Shown here one piece after another: positions 5,519-53,981 of a DNA stretch of 58,566 nt (within the stretch, counting starts at the first letter, position 1; each line of letters begins with the position of its first letter). Origin of the DNA: Elusimicrobia bacterium GWA2_51_34 (lineage in GTDB: Bacteria; Elusimicrobiota; Elusimicrobia; Elusimicrobiales; UBA9959); assembly GCA_001799565.1 (NCBI GenBank), contig MGTS01000005.1, positions 5,528-64,093 on the forward strand. Direction: 5' to 3'. Below the pieces are notes generated by a model that saw nothing but the letters and a program-made list of their open reading frames with translations, made no database searches and was not told where the DNA came from. Both the position numbers and the translations under genes were made by a program.

Positions 5519-5526
5519 GGAGAAAG

Positions 5527-5727
5527 ATACGGACAGTAACCGGTGACCGGTAACCAGTAACCGGTAAAAAGCAGACGGCAGACGGGAATAGGCGGGAATA
5601 AGTAAAGGGCAGTAACCGGTGGCCGGTATACAGTAACCGGTAAAAAATAGACGGCAGGCGGGAATAAGTAAAGGGCAGTAACTGGCGACGCAGTAACCGG
5701 TTACCGATTACTGGTTACTGATTACGG
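5527..5727. repeat. Tandem 7 bp word array (CAGTAAC / CGGTAAC type)
   Basis: More than twenty degenerate 7-mers related to CGGTAAC, CGGCAGA and CGGGAAT run in phase, with a longer unit of about 70-80 bp repeated roughly twice. The right end (about 5690-5727) is the partial reverse complement. The stop codon of the downstream minus-strand gene (complement of 5715-5717) and its last residues NRNQ are encoded in the array. Confidence 0.8.
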
Positions 5728-6527
5728 TTTTTTATACATGAAAGCCATAGGAGTTCCTTTTCGTAGGCCTCAAGTCCGGTTAAAATAAAATCTCTGGCGG
5801 GGGTCTTTTTCTTAATGCCGCTAAAAGCGCGGTTCATCAGGGGTTTTGAGAAGGCCCTTGCTTCCAGTTCGTCAAGCAACAGGCGGAAGTTTTCCGTGCT
5901 TGAGTAGGTTTTAGAGGCGCCAAGGCCTGAAAAGTCAAACTCGTCGTGCCGAAAGCGCAGGCGGAGCCCGCATCCGCCTAAGGCGGATGCGGGATGGGGA
6001 AGATCATTCTGCGCGCTGAAAATATCGGCGTAATAAACTATTTCTTTTTGCGGATGCGGCACCGGATCTTTAGGCCGGACGTTTTCTGGTTTTAAAATAG
6101 AAGGAAAATATTTGAGCCTCACTTCTTCCAGCAGATCCGTTTCAAGCTCGGCCGCTGTTATTTTTGGCGGTAAAAAAACTTCAATGGCCGCCGCCGCAAG
6201 CATAGTCAGACTGTCGTAACGGGCAAAATCCTTCTGTGTCTTGTTTTGATAGTAAAAGCCGTCGTTTTTGAATTCTATCTTTTCAATAACAAGCGGCTGC
6301 GGGAGGGGGCGGTTTTCAACCACCATGGTTTTAAGCCCGGCCGCGGCGGCCAGGGCGCGCGCGGCCATGGCCGGTTCAAAGCCGGCATTTTCAAGCAGAA
6401 AACCGGGAGCAGCCTTCAGCCGCAGTTTAGCTTCTTTTTCCAGTAAACCCAGAGAAGACATGAGAAACGAGAGCACTTTGGCGCTCTCATTTTCAGTTTC
6501 AGTGAGTAATAAACAATATTCGGCCAT
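5715..6527 (-). CDS. Hypothetical protein with in-frame REP-like insertion
   Basis: I do not recognise this 270-residue protein. It begins MAEYCLLLTETENES, has no signal peptide or membrane segment, and alternates helix-rich and charged stretches. A 13 bp perfect palindrome at 5967-5993 is translated in frame as a Gly/Ala/Pro-rich patch around residue 180. Its core CCGCCTAAGGCGG is the same as in the repeats at 53.4 and 53.9 kb, so this patch is probably a late insertion. The C-terminal four residues and stop come from the adjacent word array. The promoter is not obvious. Confidence 0.65.
   Translation of the reverse strand: MAEYCLLLTETENESAKVLSFLMSSLGLLEKEAKLRLKAAPGFLLENAGFEPAMAARALAAAAGLKTMVVENRPLPQPLVIEKIEFKNDGFYYQNKTQKDFARYDSLTMLAAAAIEVFLPPKITAAELETDLLEEVRLKYFPSILKPENVRPKDPVPHPQKEIVYYADIFSAQNDLPHPASALGGCGLRLRFRHDEFDFSGLGASKTYSSTENFRLLLDELEARAFSKPLMNRAFSGIKKKTPARDFILTGLEAYEKELLWLSCIKNRNQ
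5967..5993. repeat. REP-like perfect palindrome inside a CDS
   Basis: Thirteen-base arms, CCCGCATCCGCCT and its complement, are separated by a single A. The core TCCGCCTAAGGCGGA is also present in the intergenic elements at 53390-53404 and 53910-53924. It lies in frame within the hypothetical gene. Confidence 0.8.
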
Positions 6528-6554: not shown

Positions 6555-6740
6555 GCCCACCAAACAGCCGGTGGGTCCGCCAAAGGCGGATAGGCAATGA
6601 GACTGTAGGTAAGAAGCAGTGACCCTGGCCTGTCGCGGACCTCTGACCTGCTCTGTTGAATTGTGTCGCGTTCGCTCCACCCTGTTGTGCCGGTGGCCTC
6701 TGGCGCTGTCATCCGGCCTGGCGCTGTCCGCGACTGAAAC
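6555..6740. repeat. Composite hairpins and a GTCGCGG/CCGCGAC repeat element
   Basis: Two short hairpins, CCCACC/GGTGGG and TCCGCC-AAA-GGCGGA, lie at 6557-6592. They are followed by a repeat that opens with GGCCTGTCGCGG (GTCGCGG at 6632-6638) and closes with CCGCGACTGA (CCGCGAC at 6728-6734). Related elements with a 14-16 nt interior occur at 19650 and 53490. This copy has a longer interior of about 90 bp that contains parts of the same words. Confidence 0.65.
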
Positions 6741-6785: not shown

Positions 6786-8114
6786 TCACATGTTTTTTGC
6801 GGACATTATTTCCAATATCACTCGGTCAACCTTGGCCATGCCGGTTTTTGAAATAAGGGCGATGTTTTTTATTGTTTCTTCGGCTGTTTTGCCTATAAAA
6901 CCTTCAAGTTCGCTTATGCCTTCGCCGTTAATCGCCATGTACGCGGCCCGTATGGCTGAATCGGAAGAAGAGGCCACTTTAAGCGCGCAGCCGCTTTTAG
7001 CCCCGTCGCAAAGAGTTCCGCCAAGGTCGCTTATGAGGTTGTTTACCGCGAGCGTGGCGGCCTTCAGGTTAGCGCCTTTGCGCTGCCAGACTATGGCCAC
7101 GGCGGCTCCCACGCCCGCGGCCACGGCGCAGCCGCAGATGGGGGCAAGCTCGCCGGTGTAGACCTTAATATAGGCGTTCACCAGATGGGAAAGCGCTATG
7201 CTTTTTAAAATTCTCTTCTCAGGCACTTTAAAGGCTTTTCCTACAAGATACGGCACGAGTATGGCCACTACACCCTGGTTGCCCGATTGGCCGCTTGACA
7301 TAACGGGCAGCGGCGCGCCCGCCATTCGGGCGTCGGTGGCTGCCGCGGTGGTAAGTTTGGCCGTTGAAAGAATGTCTTTTTTAATATAGCCTTTGGCTAT
7401 AAGGTCCGAGATATAATATCCCACTTTTTTTATTTTCAGGCCTTCCTTTGAGGCGGCCAGGTTAAGCTTTACGCCTTCTTTTATGTAGGCAAGCTGGGCG
7501 GGTGTTATGGCCTCAATTTCTTTGAAAAGTTTTTTAAAATCGGTTTTGCGCAAAACTGATTTATATGGGGCGGAATTTTTTCCGGTGACATTAGCCTGCT
7601 CCGCCTCAGGCGGACTGTCCGCGGCTGAGGTGCCCGCTTTTTTGCGCATTATCTCCCTGCCGTCTTTTTTTAAAAGAGTTACGGCGCTGTGGCTGTTTTT
7701 TATTTCGCAAAGCGCTTTGTGTCCGGCCGAGCGGACTTCCGCTGAAATATAAATGCCTTTTTTTGCGTAGTCAATGGTTATGGAAACGGCTTTTTTGCGC
7801 AGCATGGCCCTGGCTTTTGTTAAATCGGAAGCGGCCAGATCATTAAAGATAGCGGAGCCGGCTTCGGGGCCGGCCATAACAGCCCCCAGCGCGGCGGCCA
7901 TCAGGTTTCCTTTCTCGCCGCGCGTGTTAGGCAGCGCCACGGCAAGGCCGTTTTTATAAGTACCGGGGTCCATTTTGATATTAACTGAAATAACTTTATC
8001 GGGTAACAGCAGTTTGGCGGCGTTAGCGGAGCAAAAAGCCACGGCTATCGGTTCAGTGCAGCCCATTGCGGGATAAACTTCGTGTTTTAAGACTTCGGTG
8101 AGTAAGTTAGTCAT
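6786..8114 (-). CDS. cyuA: L-cysteine desulfidase family protein (CyuA/YhaM, UPF0597)
   Basis: The 442-residue protein opens with EVYPAMGCTEPIAVAF (Cys19), the signature of the L-cysteine desulfidase family, which splits cysteine to pyruvate, sulfide and ammonia using an iron-sulfur cluster. Further conserved cysteines occur in ICGCAVAAGVG near residue 326 and CDGAKSGCALK near residue 370. SGQSGNQG near residue 272 is also typical. Residues of about 155-170 (TSAADSPPEAEQ) look foreign: they are encoded by a REP-like palindrome at 7600-7614. The protein is cytosolic. No SD is obvious upstream of the ATG; a repeat arm begins 7 bp upstream. Confidence 0.85.
   Translation of the reverse strand: MTNLLTEVLKHEVYPAMGCTEPIAVAFCSANAAKLLLPDKVISVNIKMDPGTYKNGLAVALPNTRGEKGNLMAAALGAVMAGPEAGSAIFNDLAASDLTKARAMLRKKAVSITIDYAKKGIYISAEVRSAGHKALCEIKNSHSAVTLLKKDGREIMRKKAGTSAADSPPEAEQANVTGKNSAPYKSVLRKTDFKKLFKEIEAITPAQLAYIKEGVKLNLAASKEGLKIKKVGYYISDLIAKGYIKKDILSTAKLTTAAATDARMAGAPLPVMSSGQSGNQGVVAILVPYLVGKAFKVPEKRILKSIALSHLVNAYIKVYTGELAPICGCAVAAGVGAAVAIVWQRKGANLKAATLAVNNLISDLGGTLCDGAKSGCALKVASSSDSAIRAAYMAINGEGISELEGFIGKTAEETIKNIALISKTGMAKVDRVILEIMSAKNM
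7600..7632. repeat. REP-like palindrome inserted in the cysteine desulfidase gene
   Basis: TCCGCC, a variable TCA, GGCGGA at 7600-7614 is followed by GTCCGCGGCTGAG at 7617-7629. The second part resembles the GTCCGCGACTGAG end of the intergenic element at 53.5 kb. The insertion keeps the reading frame. Confidence 0.6.
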
Positions 8115-10489: not shown

Positions 10490-10502
10490 GTTAGTCTCCT
10501 TT

Positions 10503-10600
10503 GGTAGTCTATAGAGTCACAGAGTCTTAGAGTCCAAGAGTCTTAGAGTCGCGGAGTCCCAGACTCCCAGACTCCTAGACTCTCAGACGCCCCGACTACC
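10503..10600. repeat. Periodic-arm inverted repeat (8 bp word, AGAGTCNN)
   Basis: The left arm is built from six in-phase 8-mers AGAGTCNN and the right arm from the complementary AGACTCNN, with almost no loop. The outer ends are GGTAGTC and GACTACC. The stop codon TAG of the pseudouridine synthase gene (complement of 10596-10598) lies in the outer end of the right arm. Confidence 0.88.
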
Positions 10601-11159
10601 CTAATTTCAGACTCCTGACTTCAGCTTCTGTTATTTCACGCCATTGTCCGGGCGCCAGGCCTTTCAGGGTAAGCGGTCCGATGGCGTAGCGCAACAGCCG
10701 TAAAACAGGAAACCCCACACTGGCAAGCATACGTCTTATCTGCCGGTTGCGTCCTTCCTTTATTTTTACTTCCACCCAGGAAGTGGGCACTGTTTTCCTG
10801 AAACGGATAGGGGGATCGCGCGGCGGCAGGGCGGGTTCCTCAAGCATGCGCGCTTCACAGGGCAGGGTGGGGCCGTCGTTTAAAATCAGTCCCTTTTCTA
10901 GTTTTCCCACGGCCTCGGCGGTTATTTCCCGCTCAACCTGCGCCCAATAGGTTTTTTGCGTTTTGTGGCGTGGTTCTGAAATAAAACTTTGCAGCGCTCC
11001 GTCGCCGGTTAAAATAAGCAGGCCCTCGCTGTCGTGGTCAAGCCGTCCGGCGGCGTAAACACCCTTTGGCAGGCCGAAATCAGCCAGGGAGCGGTGCCCG
11101 TCACGCGGAGTAAATTGCGACAGCACGCCATAGGGTTTGTTGAAAATAATAGTAGGCAT
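10596..11159 (-). CDS. rluE: RsuA/RluE-type pseudouridine synthase
   Basis: The protein is about 187 residues when started at the ATG at 11159 (MPTIIFNKPYGV). A longer frame upstream would be translated repeat and is rejected. Motifs NKPYGVLSQ, GRLDHDSEGLLILT (catalytic Asp) and EGRNRQIRRM are diagnostic of the RsuA family; the short length without an S4 domain fits RluE, which modifies 23S rRNA near the peptidyl transferase centre. The stop codon comes from the repeat arm downstream. The neighbour on the other strand is RNase D, so two RNA-processing genes diverge here. Confidence 0.85.
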   Translation of the reverse strand: MPTIIFNKPYGVLSQFTPRDGHRSLADFGLPKGVYAAGRLDHDSEGLLILTGDGALQSFISEPRHKTQKTYWAQVEREITAEAVGKLEKGLILNDGPTLPCEARMLEEPALPPRDPPIRFRKTVPTSWVEVKIKEGRNRQIRRMLASVGFPVLRLLRYAIGPLTLKGLAPGQWREITEAEVRSLKLG

Positions 11160-20683: not shown

Positions 20684-20783
20684 CAGTTTAGAGGGTTTCA
20701 GGGTTGTGGAGTTTAGGAGTTAAAGAGTTTTAGAGTTAGAGAGTTCCGGAGTTCCCAACTCACAACTCTTCAACTCCCTGACA
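20684..20783. repeat. Periodic-arm inverted repeat (8 bp word, AGTTNNNG)
   Basis: The left arm has in-phase 8-mers such as AGTTTAGG, AGTTAAAG and AGTTAGAG; the right arm has CAACTC words. It lies between two same-strand genes. Confidence 0.82.
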
Positions 20784-24543: not shown

Positions 24544-24672
24544 GAGTCAAGGAGTTTTGAAGTCTGGGCGTCTGAGCGTCAGGGAGTACAGAGTTCTTAT
24601 CCCGGAGTTTCCGGCCGACTCTAAGACTCTCAAACTCCAAGACTCTGAGACTCTTAGACTCCCAGACTCCCG
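24544..24672. repeat. Periodic-arm inverted repeat (8 bp word, GAGTCNNN)
   Basis: Left arm of about 24544-24599 has 8-mers related to GAGTCAAG; right arm of about 24616-24672 has GACTCTNA in phase. It fills a convergent junction. The stop codon (complement of 24654-24656) and last residues SGSLGV of the glycosyltransferase are encoded by the right arm. Confidence 0.88.
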
Positions 24673-25889
24673 GAATTGATCCCAAGAGCTGTTTGCCATT
24701 CCACAATCTTTATTTTCAGGGAAAAGTCCTCGGCGCGCCGGCGGGCTGCGGCGCTGTATTTCTCAAGCCGGGCACTGTCGGACAGCAGGGCGGAGATATG
24801 TTTCGCCCAAAGCCGTTCCAGGCCGCTTATAACGGGTGTAAAGTCAGGGGCGGTAACCTGAAATTGAGGCATTAAAAGCCCGAAAGCGGTTTCTTCAGGA
24901 GCGGCCGCCTCTGTCTGGAAATCTGTTTCAGGGGCCATTATTTCACGGGGACCGGATCGGCAGTCGCAGGATATTACCGGCAGGCCGCACGCCAGGGCCT
25001 CAATAACGGAGTTTGGAAAACCTTCCCAGAGCGAGGGGAAGGCGAACAATACGGCTTTTGAGAAAAATTTATACGGGTTTTTTTGAAAGCCCAGAAAGAA
25101 CACATCATCTTTTGCCTGCGGCCCCGCGGCTCGGCCGGGGAAATATGCGTTAAGTCCCATAGCCGCGCATAAGCCTAGCAGCTTTTCCTCCAGCTCGCCT
25201 TTTCCCAGAAAAACCAGCGCCGCGTCCGGATCTGTTTTTTTAAGCCCGGCGAATATCCTGAGTAAATGCCAATGCCCTTTTTGGGTTCTAAGGCGGCCGC
25301 TTGTTATTATAACCGGCCTGGTAAAAACAGCTTCATGCCGGCTTTCAAGCGGCTCGGAGGACGCGGCGTTTATCGCCTCCGTGTCGCAGGCGTTCGTTAT
25401 TACCCTGATCTTTTCCGGAGGCGCGCCGAAGTTCTCCGTCAGGTCGCGCGCGTTGCCTTTTGAATTGGAAATTATTAAATCCGCCGCGGGATAGAGCTTC
25501 CTGATGATCGGTTTCATCAGCGCGCCGCGAATACCTGAAAAATCAACGGAAGGATGCGTGCGTTCGCAGATCACGGCGCGGTGCCCGCTTTTGCGCGCGG
25601 CCAGTATGTTTACAAAATTTGAGCGTTCCATTAAAGAGAGTACGGTGTCGCCTCGGCAGGTTTTGGCGGCAAGACGCGAGGCGTAGAGCGGTGATAAAAT
25701 TGTTTTTATGGCGCCGGGCAGCGAAGCGCCATGGTGTAAAAGGCTTGAAAACGGCGGCAGATCAGGGAGGGGGGAACATCCTCCGTCAAGAAGCAGGAAG
25801 GCTTCCGGCTTCATGGTTTTTGCAAGAAGCGCCGCCTGAATTTCCGCGCCGCCTCCAAACAGCGAATTAACCAGTATTTTTAAAGCCAT
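24654..25889 (-). CDS. Glycosyltransferase family 4
   Basis: The 411-residue protein has the GT-B fold signature: VNSLFGGGAEIQAALL at the N-terminus, ISNSKGNARDLTENFG in the linker, ITSGRLRTQKGHWHLLRIF at the start of the nucleotide-sugar domain, and FPSLWEGFPNSVIEALACG (the EGFPNSVIEA acceptor/donor loop). It transfers a sugar, perhaps for surface polysaccharide or glycoprotein. No other cell-wall sugar gene flanks it. The C-terminal end has been replaced by repeat-encoded residues. Confidence 0.88.
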   Translation of the reverse strand: MALKILVNSLFGGGAEIQAALLAKTMKPEAFLLLDGGCSPLPDLPPFSSLLHHGASLPGAIKTILSPLYASRLAAKTCRGDTVLSLMERSNFVNILAARKSGHRAVICERTHPSVDFSGIRGALMKPIIRKLYPAADLIISNSKGNARDLTENFGAPPEKIRVITNACDTEAINAASSEPLESRHEAVFTRPVIITSGRLRTQKGHWHLLRIFAGLKKTDPDAALVFLGKGELEEKLLGLCAAMGLNAYFPGRAAGPQAKDDVFFLGFQKNPYKFFSKAVLFAFPSLWEGFPNSVIEALACGLPVISCDCRSGPREIMAPETDFQTEAAAPEETAFGLLMPQFQVTAPDFTPVISGLERLWAKHISALLSDSARLEKYSAAARRRAEDFSLKIKIVEWQTALGINSGSLGV

Positions 25890-49054: not shown

Positions 49055-49469
49055 AATAGTGCGACGTCGGGAACACAGGTAATAAGTCCAAGAGTCTGAG
49101 AGTCTGAGAGTCAAGAACTCTGACTTCTGATTTCTAACTTCAAACTTTCCACCCTATACCCTGTTTTTTCGTTTCTGTATCCATGCCGGGAGCGTGGGTT
49201 ACTATAATCCGTTGCTCCCGCACCTGTTTCGAATAAGGAGCAGGAGAGATTGTTTTTTTAAACGCTGCCGCGAAATCTGCCAGTTATTTTGTAGGCCGTT
49301 TTTAAATTTTTGTTCATGGTCCCTTTACTATATTACTTCACAACGGACATGATATAACGCGTTGTATCTCTTGTCACATTGAAATGGCGCGGAAACTAAT
49401 GTAAACTGTGATTTACCGCCATTTTGAAACAATAAAACAAAAGGGGTTTGTTTGTATTTTCCTTCGGAA
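49055..49469. other. Intergenic region with a repeat
   Basis: A GAGTC-word element occupies about 49087-49150. Beyond it the region is AT-rich, with TATAAT at 49203-49208 and a possible TTGTCA at 49371-49376, and likely holds the promoter of the long FN3 gene. No gene is seen. Confidence 0.5.
49087..49150. repeat. Periodic-arm repeat (8 bp word, GAGTCTGA)
   Basis: In-phase copies of GTCTGAGA are followed by a short complementary right arm (CTCTGACTTC). It lies downstream of the pullulanase gene and shares its word family with the elements at 10.5 and 24.6 kb. Confidence 0.75.
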
Positions 49470-53336: not shown

Positions 53337-53416
53337 TTGCGAGCGGTAGCGAAACAATCTCGCCGTGTTATAAACAGCGGGATCGCCACGTCCGCCTAAG
53401 GCGGACTCGCGATGAC
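53333..53416. repeat. GTCATTGCGAG palindromic element without gene (84 bp, MITE-like)
   Basis: The left end GTCATTGCGAGCGGTAGCGA and right end CTCGCGATGAC are imperfect inverted repeats. The centre reads CGTGTTATAAACAGCGG, and the right half holds the TCCGCCTAAGGCGGA core. The right half (53371-53417) is identical over 47 bp to the right half of the gene-containing copy at 53891-53937. Confidence 0.85.
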
Positions 53417-53440
53417 AAAAATTGCGATAACAAATAGTCT

Positions 53441-53525: not shown

Positions 53526-53529
53526 GATT

Positions 53530-53936
53530 GTCATTGCGAGCCGGAGGCGAAGCAATCCCGCTGTTGTTGGGAAAGGCGGGAAAAAAGAAGTTGAGAAGAT
53601 TTATGTCCGAAAGGCTTTATTGTGTTTATCTCATGACGAACAAAGTAAACACAGTACTCTATACTGGCGTTACCTCTGACTTAAAACGGAGGGTTTATGA
53701 ACACAAAAACAAGCTTATTGACGGATTTACGAAACGTTACAATATTACCAAACTGGTCTGGTATGAATGCGGCAGTGCGGTTCTGCCGGCGATAGCGATG
53801 GAAAAACAGATAAAGGCCGGCTCGCGGGCCGGGAAGGTTCGGCTTATTACTGCGATGAACCCTGAGTGGAGAGACTTATATAAAGAATTGTAAACAGCGG
53901 GATCGCCACGTCCGCCTAAGGCGGACTCGCGATGAC
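53530..53936 (+). mobile_element. GTCATTGCGAG element with a GIY-YIG nuclease gene at its centre (407 bp)
   Basis: The left half GTCATTGCGAGCCGGAGGCGAAGCAATCCCGCTGTT (quoted here only by ends: 53530-53565) and right half 53893-53936 are inverted relative to one another. They correspond base for base, with few changes, to the two halves of the gene-free copy at 53333-53416. The nuclease gene occupies exactly the place of the few central bases of that copy. The stop codon TAA belongs to the right half. Mobility by the encoded nuclease is an inference. Confidence 0.75.
53603..53893 (+). CDS. GIY-YIG nuclease, single-domain (96 residues)
   Basis: The product starts at ATG 53603 (upstream GAGAAG). 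It has YCVYLM and TVLYTGVTSDLKRRVYEHK, the GIY-YIG core with Tyr, Gly and the catalytic Arg, then NITKLVWYEC and AIAMEKQIKAGSRAGK with the metal-binding Glu. Single-domain members (UPF0213-like) have no certain cellular role. Here the gene is framed by the two halves of a palindromic repeat and its stop codon lies in one of them, so it looks like part of a mobile unit rather than a housekeeping gene. Confidence 0.88.
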   Translation: MSERLYCVYLMTNKVNTVLYTGVTSDLKRRVYEHKNKLIDGFTKRYNITKLVWYECGSAVLPAIAMEKQIKAGSRAGKVRLITAMNPEWRDLYKEL

Positions 53937-53953
53937 AGAAATTGCGATGGCAA
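53891..53953. repeat. Right half of the GIY-YIG element (direct repeat of 53371-53433)
   Basis: It is identical to the stand-alone copy over 47 bp, then differs by one base before another shared AAATTGCGAT. The two copies are 520 bp apart. Confidence 0.9.
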
Positions 53954-53981
53954 AAGTAGAGGAGACAAGGAACGTTAAACT

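Follow-up and report, generated by a model that had tools for sequence, protein, structure and literature searches.

Palindromes within protein-coding sequence have been described chiefly in Rickettsia and Wolbachia. The stretch of DNA analysed here (the window; 58,566 nucleotides of contig MGTS01000005.1 of Elusimicrobia bacterium GWA2_51_34) holds a perfect palindrome in the middle of a protein gene, which raises the question of whether the palindrome is a native part of that gene or a piece of DNA that entered it, and, if it entered, to what kind of element it belongs and by which route such an element may spread.

The Palindrome and Its Host Gene

The palindrome CCCGCATCCGCCTAAGGCGGATGCGGG lies at positions 5967-5993 and consists of two 13-nt arms around one central base. 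It is read on the minus strand within an ORF of 270 aa (5715-6527), where its codons, CCC GCA TCC GCC TTA GGC GGA TGC GGG, specify PASALGGCG at residues 179-187. Both the sequence and the reading frame agree with the first-pass annotation, which had described a perfect 27-bp palindrome read in frame inside a hypothetical protein. No Pfam family matched this protein. The predicted model of the protein has a mean pLDDT of 76, with values below 50 at residues 174-184, between the strands 160-171 and 189-193; the insert delimited below overlaps this segment and starts within it, although a low pLDDT is in part what one would expect of a stretch that has no counterpart in any aligned homologue. A fold search of the model against the PDB gave nothing at E < 0.001, the best folds being the C-terminal domain of L7/L12 (E 2.8e-3) and then ClpS; a stretch of approximately 70 residues in the model of the protein encoded at 5715-6527 may resemble the C-terminal domain of ribosomal L7/L12 or ClpS. 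Just downstream of the gene, at 5519-5730, there are intergenic degenerate repeats of CAGTAACCGGTGACCGG.

Absence of the Patch in Related Proteins

A search for homologues of the host protein over 61 genomes gave matches in 25 of them (37 matching rows, 26 of which were aligned); because three aligned rows (L017, L021 and L034) correspond to an ORF in the wrong frame and a fourth is the window's own gene, 22 homologues are informative. The PASALGGCG patch is absent from all 22, and the orthologue in a genome of the same genus (G002, 67% identity) is likewise without it. The homologues in named records are Elusimicrobia MAGs. At the DNA level the two orthologues differ by a net 33 nt, or 11 codons: the window gene reads GAT CTT CCC CAT, then the nine palindrome codons and CTC CGC, then CTG CGC TTT, and the matching stretch of the G002 orthologue reads GAT TTT CCG CAC CTG CGG TTT. 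By this codon comparison with G002 (L008) and by comparison with the other homologues, the net in-frame insert occupies 5961-5993 on the minus strand and encodes residues P179-R189. No clear target-site duplication accompanies the window insert in the comparison with G002. The palindrome is an insertion that kept the reading frame. An insertion event is also what the first-pass annotation had proposed, naming as a check an alignment of homologues in search of a missing patch near residue 180; the patch is indeed missing there, with no conservation in distant homologues.

The 15-nt Core and Its Copies

Repeat searches and aligned copies delimit a 15-nt core, TCCGCCTTAGGCGGA, which is common to all copies and which in the window palindrome spans 5973-5987 (minus strand). 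In aligned copies these 15 nt stay the same whereas the flanks vary; the loop of the core is TNA, 3 nt in length. The 15-mer TCCGCCTAAGGCGGA occurs exactly at 53391-53405 and at 53911-53925, both on the minus strand and flanking a GIY-YIG ORF (53528-53893, plus strand, assigned by Pfam). The upstream copy lies inside a GTCATCGCGAG...GCGATCCC repeat at 53368-53434, and the downstream copy inside 53888-53954, which is 94% identical to that repeat. Copies of the 15-mer with one mismatch start at 6576 and 7600: the former is a related core, TCCGCCAAAGGCGGA (6576-6590, plus strand), in the gap between the host gene and its neighbour, and the latter is a core variant, TCCGCCTGAGGCGGA (7600-7614, minus strand), inside an L-cysteine desulfidase (SDH_alpha) gene. 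With two mismatches or fewer, the window contains 10 strand matches to the 15-mer, whereas 100 shuffles gave 0.18 on average and never more than 2. The first-pass annotation had held that the palindrome shares its core with the GIY-YIG element 48 kb away and is a member of the same repeat family. The sharing holds for the 15-nt core; it does not extend to the outer arms, which are CCCGCA/TGCGGG in the window gene and GTCATCGCGAG/CGTGGCGATCCC beside the GIY-YIG gene, so that this gene, at 53.5 kb, is flanked by two copies and yet only the core is common to these and the insert in the window gene.

Over all 43 contigs of the genome (2.63 Mb), the core pattern TCCGCCTNAGGCGGA has 89 copies, 75 of them with TTA at the centre, and the reversed pattern, which served as a control, has none; the core of the palindrome belongs to this 89-copy repeat family. 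Across the phylum Elusimicrobiota, the core is present in 30 of 294 genomes, the genomes compared being metagenome assemblies. Its copy number is 185 in G015, 89 in the window genome (G000), 29 each in G004 and G006, 20 and 3 in two genomes of the same genus, and 0 in most genomes of the phylum, and it ranges from 0 to 185 within one family. Such bursty copy numbers between relatives are typical of mobile DNA. A 25-nt palindrome pattern had no match in a collection of named genomes, from which the window's own genome may have been left out. Very probably, a small non-autonomous repeat with the palindrome as its body was inserted, with a net gain of 33 nt (11 codons), after the split from the same-genus relative.

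In-frame Inserts in Other Genes

Stretches around 82 of the 89 TNA copies were fetched and classified, an ORF being counted as coding-like by its codon statistics and a length of at least 150 aa. Twenty-seven of these copies are internal to such ORFs, 7 are near ORF ends and 48 are without such an ORF. In a Pfam scan of 30 core-bearing ORFs, the matches include GH13, GH35, glycerol kinase, TsaE, BamA, OmpH, amidase, M14 peptidase, mannose-PTS IID and MTTase. Thirteen genes, hand-picked from the internal coding copies with a preference for recognizable families, were compared with their same-genus orthologues (G001/G002), and 10 of the 13 carry net inserts of 15-162 nt: the window gene and a trehalohydrolase (33 nt each), TsaE (51), glycerol kinase (60), PTS IID (162), GH35 (21), amylase (15), M14 (93), a cysteine desulfidase (42) and, in a loose alignment, an amidase. 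Against G002, the trehalohydrolase has not only the same net 33 nt but also the same PASALGGCG as the window gene. EamA shows a substitution with a net gain of one codon instead of a clean insert, and the PDDEXK and MTTase copies lie in variable linkers and are not clean inserts, the MTTase stretch being shorter than that of its relatives. The same family has thus been inserted in frame into many unrelated genes. Because the net lengths range from 15 to 162 nt, the inserts are not one fixed transposable unit.

Solved chains of TsaE, glycerol kinase, mannose-PTS IID and L-cysteine desulfidase have no stretch corresponding to the insert; the alignment of the trehalohydrolase with a solved structure starts past its insert, and that of the MTTase stops ahead of it. 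The L-cysteine desulfidase-like gene (6786-8114, minus strand; assigned from the ORF, Pfam and structure comparison) is a neighbour of the host gene in the window, and it carries a separate 42-nt in-frame palindromic insert, AADSPPEAEQANVT (7584-7625, minus strand), around the core variant; this insert is absent from the G002 orthologue, and its ends depend on the alignment. TsaE was compared at 20 loci, 5 of which were left out by a motif filter. Its insert lies at one loop, after MRTY and before GLKIYHFDLFR, in both G000 and G015, in each case with SALGGR, and is missing in G001, G002, G010 and most others; TsaE of G013 has an insert at that loop without the core. This loop has been hit independently in two genera (G000 and G015).

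As read from the sequence, four of the six frames of the TTA core are open; one gives SALGG, one PPKA and two RLRR. Among the 27 internal coding copies, 12 are of the SALGG type, 15 of the PPKA type and none of the Arg-rich RLRR type (P = 7e-9 under equal chances, with approximately half of the copies in one 42-nt repeat unit and therefore not independent events). This skewed use of the frames suggests that Arg-rich readings are selected against. An insert such as that in the window gene would survive by virtue of an exposed loop and a bland Ser/Ala/Leu/Gly reading, insertions that break the protein or are rich in Arg would be purged by selection, and the repeat would presumably be of no benefit to the cell. 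The inserts form a natural catalogue of protein loops that tolerate insertion.

Comparison with Known Palindromic Elements

The Rickettsia palindromic elements (RPEs) are described as palindromes of 105-150 bp that are fused in frame to proteins of Rickettsia and are found in RNA genes as well (Ogata et al., 2000, as cited in PMC2229807 and PMC10969869); they also lie between genes and are presumed to be selfish (PMC2229807; PMC10969869), and the Gmk protein of Rickettsia is given as active despite its RPE insert (PMC2229807). The present repeats resemble them in being both intergenic and in frame within unrelated protein genes (27 of 82 internal), with empty sites. In contrast to the approximately 105-150 bp and long terminal inverted repeats of RPEs, the window gene has a 27-bp palindrome and a net gain of 33 nt, and the family is set apart from RPEs, as these are described, by a core of 15 nt, by net inserts that range from 15 to 162 nt and by its occurrence in another phylum.

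REPs, according to PMC3733652, carry GTAG or CGTC tags, measure 20-40 bp, reach high copy numbers and have intragenic copies in several species. A short palindrome in many copies (27 bp, with a core present 89 times) is similar to this, and to this extent, that of size, the description REP-like in the first-pass annotation is apt; the features of the GTAG and CGTC types and the link to RAYT were not found. Inspection by eye of 104 copies in register revealed no constant GTAG. Many core copies read CGTCC through an overlap of CG with the core, and the window copy reads CATCC. Moreover, the loop of CGTC REPs is 4-5 nt (PMC3733652), whereas that of the core is TNA (3 nt), and REP arms are constant, whereas the arms here are variable. 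Finally, GTAG REPs flank a RAYT/Y1 gene, whereas the core is found within 1.5 kb of none of 30 Y1_Tnp loci. The window element behaves like RPEs and intragenic REPs but lacks their size, tag, loop and RAYT features, and in behaviour it is closer to the Rickettsia palindromic elements than to REPs.

Two further kinds of element invite comparison. Perfect inverted repeats occur in the coding sequence of Nematomorpha mitochondria, where template switching has been proposed (PMC6649704); there, both arms encode conserved amino acids, whereas the repeated unit here adds residues that homologues lack. Intragenic MITEs of Neisseria, Yersinia and enterobacteria are, according to PMC2229807, in-frame fusions of short inverted-repeat elements with constant inverted ends and 100-200 bp in length, neither of which is seen here. 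No report of such palindromic repeats in Elusimicrobiota was found in the open literature among the titles of the matches listed. The habit of inserting coding palindromes is here encountered in a phylum distant from Rickettsia and Wolbachia, with empty sites in genomes of the same genus.

Possible Routes of Spread

The repeat may, with almost an even chance, be spread by classical MITE-type transposition, in which a transposase acts on inverted ends and duplicates the target; some enzyme would mobilize the repeat in trans and leave short direct repeats behind. Such repeats are present beside the two TsaE inserts: that of G000 is bounded on both sides by CCGGC, which G001 has once, and that of G015, with CCCACCACC/GGTGGTGGG ends, has ACTTAT on both sides. 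The bursty copy numbers among relatives also favour this route. None of these direct repeats has a clear counterpart at the window insert, however, and two short direct repeats could arise by chance; in addition, no more than 15 nt are constant, the ends vary from copy to copy and the net inserts are of unequal length. Y1 loci, to which this particular comparison is confined, give no support: in seven genomes (38 rows matched, 30 with a locus), none of the 30 Y1_Tnp loci has the core within 1.5 kb, and RAYT/Y1 transposases were accordingly rejected as drivers.

Somewhat short of an even chance is a second route, in which one hairpin tip serves as the template for another: a strand under replication would switch from hairpin to hairpin, and a 15-nt hairpin would in this way enter or replace the tips of quasi-palindromes. 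PMC6649704 discusses how template switching can make quasi-palindromes perfect. In all 17 units found of a 42-nt repeat, exactly 15 nt, and no other length, separate GGCCTGT from the following CTGTCCGCG, and this slot holds the core TCCGCCTTAGGCGGA in 7 units and CGCGGGCCTNTGGCG or a one-base variant in 10. In EamA, 15 nt differ en bloc, G002 having TCCGCCGCGGCCGAG where G000 has TCCGCCTTAGGCGGA, and in two copies of the 5′ half of tRNA-Ala the core takes the place of the anticodon arm. The flanks of the core are mutually complementary in a number of copies, with at least four paired flanking bases in 20 of 92 vs an expected mean of 2.6 and maximum of 10 in 2000 reshufflings. The amylase gene gained exactly 15 nt, and there the flanks pair as GGTTTT/AAAACC, compared with GGTTTC/AAGTCC in the relative. 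On the other hand, 39 of the 92 copies have no paired flanking base, and in the window, trehalohydrolase and amylase genes there is a gain of sequence and no exchange. These features of the hairpin tips suggest a unit that enters or replaces them, and are also compatible with transposition. What is unusual is the small size of the constant unit, a mere 15 nt, together with its place at the tips of hairpins that have little else in common and its 15-for-15 substitution for other tips; these swaps provide a testable handle on the spread of very short palindromes without a known transposase.

A bolder form of tip copying, which we consider unlikely as a whole, is that the mobile unit is the 15-nt hairpin itself, which would capture the tips of hairpins of other kinds (those of repeat units and terminators, or the tRNA anticodon arm) and ride them into genes; a GIY-YIG nuclease that cuts hairpins, itself inserted at tRNA genes, might open the tips. 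If true, this would amount to a self-copying DNA shape, unlike a transposon with fixed ends.

That the GIY-YIG nuclease beside two of the copies spreads the palindrome is decidedly improbable. The core lies within approximately 230 bp in 4 of 36 GIY-YIG loci, all of them in G000 and G015, the two genomes richest in the core, but the other 32 loci have no core nearby, G004 with its 29 copies has no GIY-YIG locus with the core in its vicinity, and GIY-YIG genes are often located in gaps with tRNAs or many repeats, in which the core may just happen to build up. The search in ten relatives gave 36 matching rows, 30 of which had a locus. As a general driver GIY-YIG was rejected, and it is kept as a minor rival only; no mobilizing enzyme is established among the Y1 and GIY-YIG loci examined.

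That the palindrome is a regulatory hairpin within the gene, such as a terminator or attenuator, and is maintained by selection is very improbable: of the 75 TTA copies in G000, 9 combine an extended stem with a nearby T-run, as in a terminator, but the patch is missing from all informative homologues and the inserts lie in unrelated genes with no common pathway. A native, slowly evolving linker or a chance palindrome, to which a few copies in variable linkers (PDDEXK, MTTase) might be ascribed, is refuted for the window copy by the 89 exact cores vs 0 in the control and by the empty sites in relatives.

GIY-YIG Genes, tRNA Genes and Other Repeats

Several observations made along with this analysis concern tRNA genes. 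The scan for tRNAs took in 27 small GIY-YIG loci, namely 23 of the 30 of the relatives (long UvrC-like ones and a fragment being left out) and 4 of the 5 of G000 (C18 being the same as L067, with L002 left out). A tRNA lies within 250 bp in 11 of these 27 loci vs none of 30 Y1 transposase loci, and in 7 of the 11 the GIY-YIG gene has a partial copy of the tRNA on its opposite side, which outscores every one of 200 shuffles. The small GIY-YIG genes, as noted at L004/L067, L005, L127, L130, L136, L137 and L150, look like tRNA-targeting mini-elements that leave a duplicated part of the tRNA. No title among the open-literature matches listed was relevant to a link of GIY-YIG with palindromic repeats or with insertion at tRNA genes. 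The tRNA-Ala 5′ halves in which the core stands for the anticodon arm are located at 2503 of L084 and 2504 of L067, upstream of intact tRNA-Ala genes.

Other hairpin modules (CCCGCCAAACAACCCGGCGGG) are chained to the core in L040 (4612-4911) and L136 (1724-2071), where they surround GIY-YIG genes and also lie within the 5′ half of a tRNA-Ser. The window also contains intergenic degenerate 8-nt arrays of the type GAGTCTTA at 10498-10611, 20693-20766, 24544-24682 and 49068-49125, some of which are inverted relative to one another.
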